From: Acuticoccus sp. I52.16.1
GTDB taxonomy: Bacteria; Pseudomonadota; Alphaproteobacteria; Rhizobiales; Amorphaceae
Length of the DNA: 64,000 nt
Reading direction: 5' to 3'
Assembly: GCF_022865125.1 (NCBI RefSeq)
Contig: NZ_CP094828.1
Span: 3,341,219-3,405,218, forward strand
Shown here in pieces: positions 1 through 2,458 of the stretch (position 1 is its first letter; every line of letters starts with the position of its first letter). The notes under the pieces were generated by a model that did not search any database, was not told the origin of the DNA, and saw only the letters and a program-made list of their open reading frames with translations. The translations under genes and the position numbers were made by a program.

Positions 1-382
1 CGCTGTGCGGCATGCAGTGCTCCGCCTCGTCGGCCGCCTTCTGGCCACACTGTGCCGCGGCCCTATCCCCGCCCGTCTTGCGCCGCTCCATCCGGCCGGG
101 ACGCGGTCCCTCGCTGGCCGGAGGCGGCAGGCGATGGACTGCGCCCGTCCGTGCGTGGCTGTGTCTGGTCTGACGCCCGGCACCGTCGGCTCCGGGCGGG
201 TGTGCGGCGGCGTGCCAGTGCTTCGGGTGCGGCGAGGGGGGAGCCTTGCAAGGGTGCTCCGCCGCGTCGCATGGTTGTCATCTCCACGTATGATGTACCT
301 AGTGGCATGTCGTCGGCGGCGGCCGCGCATCGGGGCCCCGCGTCGCGGTCGCGCCGCGGTCCGCCCACCCAATGGAGCGCCT
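1..382. other. Upstream region without a recognisable gene
   Basis: About 380 bases precede the first convincing start codon. The forward frame that leads into the PhnN fusion is open throughout, but its translation is Arg/Pro/Ala-rich with no family motif, as expected of chance open frames in very GC-rich DNA. A good GGAG at 374-377, five bases before ATG 383, marks the start of the real gene. I see no tRNA, terminator or repeat here. The stretch may hold the promoter of the fusion gene. Confidence 0.5.
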
Positions 383-2458
383 ATGCAGACACACGACGGC
401 CCTGAGGACGCGGTGGCGGAGCCGGCCGGGGCGTCGTCTCGGGAGGGCGTCCTGTTCCTCGTCGTCGGGCCGAGCGGGGTGGGCAAGGACTCGTTGATCG
501 ACGGCGCTCGTGCCCGCCTGCCGCAGCGGCACTTCAGCCTCGCCCAGCGTGTCGTCACCCGCCCGCGTGAGGCCGGTGGCGAGGACCACGAACCCATGGA
601 CCTCACCACCTTTCGTGCCGAGGAGGCCGCGGGCGCCTTCGCCGTCGCCTGGGGCGCGCATGGCCTGCGCTACGGCATCCGCCACCGTGCCATCGCCCCG
701 CTGGCGCAGGGGTCCAACGTCATCGTCAACGCCTCGCGCGGCTCGATCGGCGCCTTCGCGACCCTCGCCCGGCGCGTCGTGGTGATCTCCGTCGTCGCCC
801 CGCCGGAGATCGTGCGCGCCCGTCTCGAAGCCCGCGGGCGCGAGGACGCGGCCGACGTCGCCGCGCGGCTCGAGCGGCGGGTGCCGCTGGTCGGCGCCGG
901 CAACGTCGCGGTCATCGACAACGGCGGCGCGCTGGAAGTGGGGGTCGACCATTTCGTCGCCGCACTCCTCGGCGCCGCCCGGCTGCCGCTCGCCGTGCAC
1001 CGTGTCCCCGTCACGCTGCCGGGCGGTCCCGTCGCGTTCGTGCATCGCGCCGCGTTGCCGCTCGCCAGCCAGCAGGTCGCGGCAGGCGGGGGGACCGAGG
1101 TCGTCGCCGACAGCGCCGTGCGCGTGCGCCTCGCCGTGACCGACGGGCCGCTCGTCGACCCGGCCAGCGTCGGCCTGCCGGACGCGGTGTTCGACCGGCT
1201 CGGTGCCGCCGAGGGCAGCGAGGTGGTTCTGCGCCGCGCCGCACCGCCCGTCAGCCGGGACGCGCTCCGGCGCAAAATCGCCGGCGATACGCTGGGGGCT
1301 GGCGCCATCGCCACCATCGTGCGCGACATCGTCGACGGCCGCTACAGCGAGGCGGAGGTGGCCGGCTTCCTCGTCGCCGCCTCGCGCCAGCTCACCGTGA
1401 CCGAGATTGCGGCGCTAACGAAGGAGCGTGCCGGCCTCGTCGTGCCGATCGCCTGGGATCGCCGGTTGGTGGTCGACAAGCACTCGCTGGGCGGCGTGCC
1501 GGGCAACCCGATCTCGCTGGTGGTGGTCCCGGTGGTGGCCGCGCACGGGCTGCCGATCCCCAAGACGTCCTCGCGTGCGATCACCTCCGCCGCCGGCACC
1601 GCCGACATCATGGAGTGCGCCGCGCGCGTGGATCTCGACGCTGCCGACCTGAAGCGCGTCGTGAGCACCGCGGGCGGCGCCGTCGCCTGGGCCGGACGCA
1701 TCAGCCACAGCCCGCTCGACGACGTGATGAACGCCATCAACCGCCCGCTCGGGATCGCTTCGCCGGGGCTCGACGTGTCCTCGATCTTGTCCAAGAAGCT
1801 CGCCGTCGGCGCGACCCATGTGGCGATCGACATTCCGGTCGGCCCTGCCGCCAAGGTGAAGACGGCCGAGGCGGGCGCCGAGCTGGCGCGGCTCTTCGAG
1901 GAGGTGGGCCGCGCGGTCGGCCTCACCGTCCGTGCCGCGATCAGCGACGGGCGCCACCCGCTCGGCCGCGGTGTGGGCCCCGCGCTGGAGCTGGAGGACG
2001 CGCTGGCGATCCTCTCCGGCGCGCCGGAGGCATGCGCCGCGCTGCGCGCCAAGGCGGTGAACGTCGCCGGCACCATCCTGGAGTGGGACCCGGCCGTCCG
2101 CGAGGGCGAGGGTCCCGCCACCGCCGCGCGGCTCCTGGCCAGCGGGGCCGCGCTGGACGCCTTCCGCGCGATCGTCGCCGCGCAGGGGCCGGTCGAGCGT
2201 TTGGCGCCGGGGCCGTTCACGCGGCCGCTCCTCGCCCCGCGCGCCGGCCGGGTGGCGGACATCGACGTTTTCGCCGTGGCGGGGCTGGCCCGCGCGGTCG
2301 GCGCACCGCTGGACAAGGGCGCGGGCGTGCGGCTCACGGTGCGGGTCGGGGACGAGGTCGCCGCCGGAGACGTTCTGGCCGACGTGGTGGCGAGCAGCCA
2401 GAACGGGATCGACGCCATCCGCGCCGACGCCAGCGGCGAGCTTTTCACGCTCGCCTGA
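383..2458 (+). CDS. Fusion: PhnN-type ribose 1,5-bisphosphokinase + AMP phosphorylase-type (DeoA/type 2) enzyme
   Basis: A 691-residue protein with two enzymes in one frame. Residues about 21-200 are a PhnN-like kinase with P-loop GPSGVGKD (29-36) and a guanylate-kinase-like fold; PhnN phosphorylates ribose 1,5-bisphosphate to PRPP. Residues about 205-691 resemble the long archaeal AMP phosphorylase / type 2 thymidine phosphorylase family: an extra N-terminal domain, then RRKIAGDTLGAGAI, DKHSLGGVPGNPISL (365-379) and IPKTSSRAITSAAGTAD (392-408), which differ from classical DeoA (KHSTGGVGD). AMP phosphorylase releases ribose 1,5-bisphosphate, the substrate of PhnN, so the halves could act in sequence. 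ATG 383 was chosen for its GGAG at -6 and because homology begins just after it. No other phn gene is in view. The domain calls are firm; the substrate of the second half is inferred. Confidence 0.85.
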   Translation: MQTHDGPEDAVAEPAGASSREGVLFLVVGPSGVGKDSLIDGARARLPQRHFSLAQRVVTRPREAGGEDHEPMDLTTFRAEEAAGAFAVAWGAHGLRYGIRHRAIAPLAQGSNVIVNASRGSIGAFATLARRVVVISVVAPPEIVRARLEARGREDAADVAARLERRVPLVGAGNVAVIDNGGALEVGVDHFVAALLGAARLPLAVHRVPVTLPGGPVAFVHRAALPLASQQVAAGGGTEVVADSAVRVRLAVTDGPLVDPASVGLPDAVFDRLGAAEGSEVVLRRAAPPVSRDALRRKIAGDTLGAGAIATIVRDIVDGRYSEAEVAGFLVAASRQLTVTEIAALTKERAGLVVPIAWDRRLVVDKHSLGGVPGNPISLVVVPVVAAHGLPIPKTSSRAITSAAGTADIMECAARVDLDAADLKRVVSTAGGAVAWAGRISHSPLDDVMNAINRPLGIASPGLDVSSILSKKLAVGATHVAIDIPVGPAAKVKTAEAGAELARLFEEVGRAVGLTVRAAISDGRHPLGRGVGPALELEDALAILSGAPEACAALRAKAVNVAGTILEWDPAVREGEGPATAARLLASGAALDAFRAIVAAQGPVERLAPGPFTRPLLAPRAGRVADIDVFAVAGLARAVGAPLDKGAGVRLTVRVGDEVAAGDVLADVVASSQNGIDAIRADASGELFTLA

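Follow-up and report, generated by a model that had tools for sequence, protein, structure and literature searches.

Two questions are raised by this locus: why should a ribose 1,5-bisphosphokinase be joined in a single polypeptide to a phosphorylase of the nucleotide type, and which nucleotide would such a phosphorylase take? AMP phosphorylase yields ribose 1,5-bisphosphate (R15P) and PhnN converts R15P to PRPP, and the preliminary description had accordingly proposed that the fusion is a one-protein route from AMP to PRPP. The gene lies in the window, that is, the whole stretch of 64,000 nucleotides from Acuticoccus sp. I52.16.1 that was analysed. Its features are given below, with aligned positions in the numbering of the T. 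kodakarensis enzyme (Tk).

374 to 377, forward strand: GGAG, a likely ribosome-binding site judged from the sequence, 5 nt before the ATG at 383
383 to 2458, forward strand: fusion open reading frame, PhnN plus NMP-phosphorylase-type domain, 691 aa in one frame
446 to 967, forward strand: PhnN domain (ribose 1,5-bisphosphokinase), residues 22-195, 163.1 bits to TIGR02322
467 to 490, forward strand: P-loop GPSGVGKD, residues 29-36, read from the sequence
992 to 2455, forward strand: AMP-phosphorylase-type domain, residues 204-691
1427 to 1429, forward strand: Arg349 (Tk Met146), by alignment
1565 to 1588, forward strand: TSSRAITS, residues 395-402, the AMP-phosphorylase signature, aligned with MSGRGLAH in the T. 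thermophilus nucleoside phosphorylase
1697 to 1699, forward strand: Arg439 (Tk Ala236), by alignment
1706 to 1708, forward strand: His442 (Tk Leu239), by alignment
1730 to 1741, forward strand: Asn450 (Tk Ile247) and Asn453 (Tk Glu250), the pocket switch, by alignment
1757 to 1759, forward strand: Ala459 at the place of Tk Asp256, by alignment
1853 to 1855, forward strand: Lys491 (Tk Lys288; Phe in the T. thermophilus PyNP), by alignment

The uninterrupted PhnN and AMP-phosphorylase-type frame, with its P-loop, was already part of the preliminary description and is borne out, although residues 1-16 are modelled with low confidence. The PhnN domain lies above the TIGR02322 cut-off of 156 bits, and the assignment of this half depends on that family score together with Foldseek matches to guanylate kinase, as the rows of the structural alignment mostly cover residues 288-691. 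The second half misses the equivalog cut-off for AMP phosphorylase, TIGR03327 (AMP_phos; 395.6 against 535 bits), and those of the DeoA/pyrimidine nucleoside phosphorylases (172.8 against 269, 172.6 against 409.05, 124.5 against 559 and 120 against 570.7), whilst it exceeds those of PRK04350 (525.6 against 434) and TIGR02645 (438.1 against 434.6). The SGRGL.H signature of the DeoA/pyrimidine nucleoside phosphorylases is missing, with SSRAITS in its place.

For AMP phosphorylase we take SRAITS, Thr203 and Lys288 to be the residues around the nucleotide 5'-phosphate, the role of SSRAITS presumably being AMP binding. An alignment was made of 33 fusions, 71 bacterial standalone proteins, the further standalone L076 and 7 archaeal proteins. 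Within this set the stretch from Tk Ser193 to Ser199 and Thr203 are kept in 33/33 fusions, and the Lys288 position holds Lys in 26 and Arg in 7 of them. SSRAITS, Thr203 and Lys288 are all present in the six proteins of the window's own clade, so that the comparison with archaeal AMP phosphorylases that had been suggested for the 5'-phosphate residues, whose role is as assumed above, comes out in favour of a nucleotide substrate.

How is the fusion distributed? A survey of genomes, which the preliminary description had called for, returned 33 distinct fusions after removal of duplicates (98 PhnN fragments became 73, and 131 phosphorylase fragments 112, before anything was counted). Six of these sit at the pet site described below and 27 elsewhere; the 31 fusion loci listed are all single frames, and that of L089 is shorter, at 596 aa. 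Full-length matches occur, among the matches listed, in at least 4 of 385 genomes of a class sample and at least 4 of 398 of a phylum sample, to which G667 is added, where the listed match covered the second half only yet the locus is one frame. The best 80 of 279 relatives in a scan of named genomes place the fusion in Rhodoplanes, Azorhizobium, Xanthobacter, Bosea, Jiella and Aurantimonas, and also in Fulvimarina, Rhodovulum sp. PH10, Variovorax and several MAGs.

In a quick phosphorylase tree, with SH-aLRT support only and 40 of 79 standalones included, the domains of all 33 fusions fall into a single clade (99), in which the pet-site group branches together with the nadC-linked L025/L056 (95). 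Two separate fusion events, which had been considered, are not borne out by this tree. The PhnN tree groups 24 nadC-linked fusions (99/95), and places the 6 pet-site fusions with 2 standalone pet-site PhnNs (99/88) next to L025/L056 (95/96). It does not join all the fusions; since its deep branches are weak and its bootstrap unsettled, it does not decide for or against a second event.

The most telling feature of the relatives is their neighbour. By tblastn, which is independent of the choice of open reading frame, 27/27 fusions outside the pet site are immediately preceded, on their own strand, by a NadC gene, and this gene is missing from the stretches around 6/6 pet-site fusions. Three fusions found later (L200, L201 and L202) served as a fresh test, and NadC is directly upstream in 3/3; L199, found with them, is the already known Jiella mangrovi locus. 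These NadC proteins exceed the TIGR00078 cut-off of 198.4 bits in 3/3 scanned (321.6-326.8 bits), a NadC above cut-off being present in 14/14 nadC-linked genomes searched. By eye, and in one alignment (L061), the basic residues for the nicotinate carboxylate look kept, judged against the list for solved QAPRTases in a passage of PMC3633916. In Variovorax (L074) the order is nadC, fusion and a gene for a binding protein of the Bug27 type (best match 2qpq, E 7.4e-135); the part of PMC11452294 drawn on here gives Bug27 and Bug69 of Bordetella as quinolinate binders, with KD values of 136 and 70 nM, and states that inactivation of bug69 did not abolish growth on quinolinate.

As a separate observation, an FRG-domain-like gene (named by reading) lies near the nadC-fusion pair, mostly on the other strand, in 10/33 fusion loci (L056, L059, L062, L065, L066, L068, L074, L077, L078 and L089) and also in L202, the weakest matches being at 29-33% identity. 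A passage of PMC9503650 places Frg in the ART superfamily and suggests that it might be an NADase.

Several residues of the base pocket differ in the fusions. At the Glu250 position Thr or Asn is found in 33/33 fusions, against Glu in 67/71 bacterial standalones and 7/7 archaea, and the Ile247 position is Asn in 33/33. The Met146 position is Arg in 33/33 fusions and in L076, the standalone that is sister to the fusion clade, against 0/78 other standalones aligned; the Leu239 position is His in 32/33 fusions and in 0/71 bacterial standalones. L076 has the Arg but still keeps Glu250 and Ile247. The pocket switch counts as a single event on one branch rather than as 33. Glu250 aligns with Arg171 of thymidine phosphorylase (TP) or with its neighbour, two alignments differing by one place, and according to a passage of PMC5238616 this Arg171 contacts the C4 substituent of the base. 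Arg439 had been considered as a diagnostic nicotinate binder; the residue is Arg in 31/33 fusions, and it was dropped because 9/71 bacterial standalones share it. The Asp256 position, which in AMP phosphorylase is presumably that of the proton donor, holds Ala or Arg in 6/6 pet-site proteins, and Asp in 20, Glu in 3, Asn in 2 and Ala in 2 of the other 27 fusions. A pyridinium leaving group might dispense with a proton donor, as would suit nicotinate mononucleotide (NaMN) as the substrate.

What, then, do bacteria with a nadC-linked fusion do with nicotinate? The amidohydrolase near the fusion in L073 is of the enamidase type (2vun, E 3.7e-109), and L089 has one too. A search of 34 genomes with the L073 protein, which is encoded in G432, found enamidase at 63% identity or more in 21/27 nadC-linked fusion genomes (in G431 as a partial match, residues 179-396) and at 70-75% in 3/6 pet-site fusion genomes (G004, G006 and G007); G005 gave only a 42% match, and none was found in G000 (the window genome), G001 or G002. 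In five genomes (G427, G432, G435, G439 and G447) enamidase and fusion share a contig and are no more than about 15 kb apart. The nadC-linked fusion genomes lacking enamidase are G430, G434, G436, G437, G443 and G444, and all of these except G434 carry NicC (6-hydroxynicotinate 3-monooxygenase; 5eow, E 2.6e-159) at 88% identity or more, G430 being the source of the query. No other nadC-linked fusion genome gave a NicC match at E 1e-90, and the pet-site genome G004 has one at 45%. Enamidase or NicC is therefore found in 26/27 nadC-linked fusion genomes, with G434 having neither; the five NicC genomes count as few events, because all are Jiella and near kin.

NicC also stands near the nadC-fusion pair in L062 and L201. 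The L201 protein, from another lineage, is 58% identical, and its gene precedes nadC, separated from it by a single MFS gene, and has [2Fe-2S] and molybdenum-hydroxylase-type genes nearby; among the 18-kb stretches of the later-found genomes G787, G723 and G667, NicC was found in L201 only. The molybdenum-hydroxylase genes near fusions (L059 and L201) match models whose curated cut-offs they do not reach, and among solved structures the one in L201 is best matched by an aldehyde dehydrogenase subunit. A maleamate-amidase-type candidate in L071 best matches N-carbamoylsarcosine amidohydrolase (1nba, E 9.3e-71) and so was not counted. In the class sample enamidase occurs at 69% identity or more in at least 30/385 genomes (with at most 4 candidates scored per genome), and NicC in at least 1/385 at 80% identity, two further matches reaching 42-45%; with 4-5 candidates scored per genome in the class searches these backgrounds may be low, and the counts are raw, with kinship ignored. 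Three of the 30 enamidase genomes are fusion genomes and 27 have no full-length fusion among the matches listed, from which it follows that enamidase does not need the fusion.

As most relatives lie beside nadC in bacteria with genes for nicotinate degradation, NaMN rather than AMP is suggested as the substrate. The C-terminal domain would phosphorolyse a nucleoside 5'-monophosphate to its base and R15P, and the PhnN domain would phosphorylate R15P with ATP to give PRPP; we infer both activities as well as the handing over of R15P from one domain to the other. In the nadC-linked setting NadC would use quinolinate and PRPP to make NaMN, the phosphorylase domain would split NaMN with Pi into nicotinate, freed for degradation, and R15P, and PhnN would regenerate PRPP, closing the cycle with NadC. 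The net reaction would be quinolinate + ATP + Pi giving nicotinate + CO2 + ADP + PPi, with the phosphoribosyl group as a recycled handle. That the family is a two-step NMP-to-R15P-to-PRPP enzyme, most likely acting on NaMN with PRPP recycled through NadC, and that the window copy is a relocated descendant whose PhnN half likely serves C-P lyase, is a reading to which we give an even chance. The fuller proposal is that nicotinate-degrading proteobacteria combined NadC, a new NaMN phosphorylase domain and a fused PhnN into an ATP-driven quinolinate-to-nicotinate cycle for catabolism, and that the window protein descends from it and was recruited to C-P lyase or pyridine-nucleotide metabolism; this is held tentatively, at somewhat less than even. 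The NaMN cycle is a strong prediction for the family and a weaker one for the window's own copy.

Part of the proposed AMP-to-PRPP route stands, namely the fusion, an NMP-type phosphorylase and, as a deduction, delivery of R15P to PhnN. AMP as the substrate does not fare as well, given the missed TIGR03327 cut-off, the replacement of Glu250 and Asp256 by Asn453 and Ala459, and the fact that, outside the window's clade, the relatives are linked with nadC and with the degradation of nicotinate. A reading with AMP alone is weakened by that missed cut-off and by the Glu250 switch; AMP-to-PRPP is possible, but AMP is not the best-supported substrate. The alternatives that follow are not exclusive of each other, so their likelihoods may overlap.

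A general salvage of nucleotides, in which AMP (or CMP or UMP) would pass through R15P to PRPP regardless of nicotinate, is unlikely but deserves weight. The AMP-phosphorylase-type 5' residues are kept, as noted, and according to a passage of PMC9700705 AMP, CMP and UMP are all substrates of the T. kodakarensis enzyme. Bacterial standalone phosphorylases, moreover, lie beside a Prs paralogue at 40/72 loci, beside an MBL-fold gene at 46/72 and beside one or both at 58/72 (many of them with 1.5 kb flanks), and in G205 and G380 the phosphorylase gene and an unfused PhnN gene are divergently arranged, with a phosphoribosyltransferase-domain gene (by eye) adjoining. Against this, PRS or MBL neighbours occur at 0/33 fusions, nadC is found beside 27/33 fusions and at 0/72 standalone loci (many of these with 1.5 kb flanks only), the AMP_phos cut-off is missed and the Glu250 that nearly all standalones keep is lost throughout the fusions. 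The unfused version of the PhnN-phosphorylase link can be seen in L167 (6577-8764) and L168 (8393-10616), and L185 (5954-9958) has a phosphorylase, Prs paralogue and MBL-fold exonuclease-like neighbourhood (names by eye). That neighbourhood perhaps leads from RNA decay to PRPP, and NMP-to-PRPP may be a wider theme beyond the fusions.

Where does this leave the window's own gene, which is most simply seen as a relocated descendant of a nadC-linked fusion, beside petABC? The fusion stands directly after petC in 6/8 Acuticoccus genomes (G000, G002, G004, G005, G006 and G007), with petA and petB also preceding it, although the G006 contig starts at petB. Downstream, a membrane-protein gene, dapE and dapD (by eye) follow in G000, G002, G004 and G005, the G006 contig ends and G007 differs. 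In G001 and G003 PhnN alone sits between petC and the membrane-protein gene, dapE and dapD, and G003 has a second fusion elsewhere in its genome. The simplest story is that a nadC-linked fusion moved to the pet site in Acuticoccus and that its phosphorylase half was lost in the G001 and G003 lines. Genome searches of the window genome gave no match to NadC, enamidase or NicC, and for this reason the NaMN cycle cannot run there as written; PncB is present. A NadC match is likewise missing in 7/8 Acuticoccus genomes (the window genome and six others), with PncB in 8/8, so that these Acuticoccus may need nicotinate or nicotinamide to make NAD.

Could the phosphorylase half in the window's clade simply be decaying, with only PhnN still mattering? 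Asp256 is lost in all six proteins, and in the PhnN tree the lone PhnNs of G001 and G003 branch within the pet-site clade. The ratio of phosphorylase to PhnN distance has a median of 1.22 over 15 window-clade pairs against 0.86 over 282 pairs (pairs not independent, L089 and pairs outside 45-93% PhnN identity left out), which indicates from sequence distances that the phosphorylase half changed a little faster than PhnN in this clade. Yet no internal stop occurs in 6/6 genomes, the other proteins being 56-77% identical to the window's, and SSRAITS, His367, Ser467, Lys471 and Lys491 are kept in all six. Decay is improbable, and the phosphorylase half would most likely still act on a pyridine mononucleotide or another NMP.

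For the PhnN half a probable role in this genome comes into view. The window genome encodes PhnJ at C1:1473090, and its phn cluster (L180 2534-12389) has phnG-, phnK-, phnL-, phnM- and DUF1045-like genes (by eye), with no phnN seen among them. The fusion is the only PhnN above cut-off in this genome, the other match, of 48.7 bits, probably being guanylate kinase. PhnJ is present, the sole PhnN over cut-off is the fusion and none is seen in the phn cluster; these facts together indicate that the PhnN half probably serves C-P lyase here. The earlier remark that no C-P lyase role is suggested locally was accordingly misleading, though the window by itself could not have revealed this. PhnJ is found in 7/8 Acuticoccus genomes and in 5/6 with a pet-site fusion (not in G007), and in all six of the latter the fusion is the only PhnN above cut-off. 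PhnJ occurs in 22 nadC-linked fusion genomes; in 7 of these the fused PhnN is the only one above cut-off, and in 15 a separate PhnN above cut-off lies within 10 kb of PhnJ.

It is also conceivable that the fusion merely makes PRPP for NadC acting on imported quinolinate, which would then pass via NaMN to NAD. This is close to how PMC11452294 (2024), in the text drawn on here, reads the bug27-nadC-phnN neighbourhood, with PRPP as NadC's donor, and a second NadC above cut-off is missing in 10/14 nadC-linked genomes searched. However, a second NadC is present in Variovorax (G433), G434, G395 and A. mangrovi (G003), and PRPP supply for NAD salvage leaves both the phosphorylase half and the association with enamidase or NicC unaccounted for, which makes it quite improbable. 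Least probable of all is a C-P lyase branch point in Acuticoccus, where R15P would go to PRPP or, by a reversed phosphorylase and a base such as adenine, to an NMP (PhnI releases adenine, and NMP phosphorylases can run in reverse), since the PhnJ distribution, the sole fused PhnN, the phn cluster of G000 with no phnN seen and the survival of PhnN and PhnJ together in G001 and G003 are set against a fusion without PhnJ in G007, no residue support for adenine once Glu250 is lost, and the separate PhnN near PhnJ in most nadC-linked genomes that have PhnJ.

Should the NaMN cycle hold, bacteria would possess a phosphorylase for NaMN and would use PRPP cyclically, as a carrier in catabolism. This would explain a gene called phnN beside nadC and would affect how a family at present labelled thymidine phosphorylase ought to be named; it also predicts that catalytic amounts of PRPP would suffice for the turnover of quinolinate by NadC together with the fusion. 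In open-access PubMed Central no report was found of the fusion's activity or of NaMN phosphorolysis by it.

How does the fusion compare with known systems? The neighbourhood that PMC11452294 reports for Variovorax and Jezberella, where bug27 adjoins nadC and phnN, is of the same kind as that in L074. In that source the gene is called phnN and PRPP is named as NadC's donor; its main text does not contain the words phosphorylase, thymidine, fusion or fused, leaving the phosphorylase half unmentioned, and the text drawn on here shows no connection with the degradation of nicotinate. With PhnN of the E. coli type (TIGR02322) the window's N-terminal domain shares the family cut-off, but it is fused to a phosphorylase and stands apart from a phn cluster in which no phnN is seen. 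The bacterial 'putative thymidine phosphorylase' families PRK04350 and TIGR02645 are those whose cut-offs the window protein exceeds, although the standalone relatives mostly keep company with Prs or MBL genes rather than nadC and mostly retain Glu250. Finally, the archaeal AMP (NMP) phosphorylase TK0352 (4ga5) of T. kodakarensis matches window residues 201-691 in fold and length and has the SSRAITS and Lys288 signature in common with it; unlike TK0352, the window protein misses TIGR03327 and carries a fused PhnN, and Glu250, Asp256 and Ile247 of the archaeal enzyme have become Asn, Ala and Asn.
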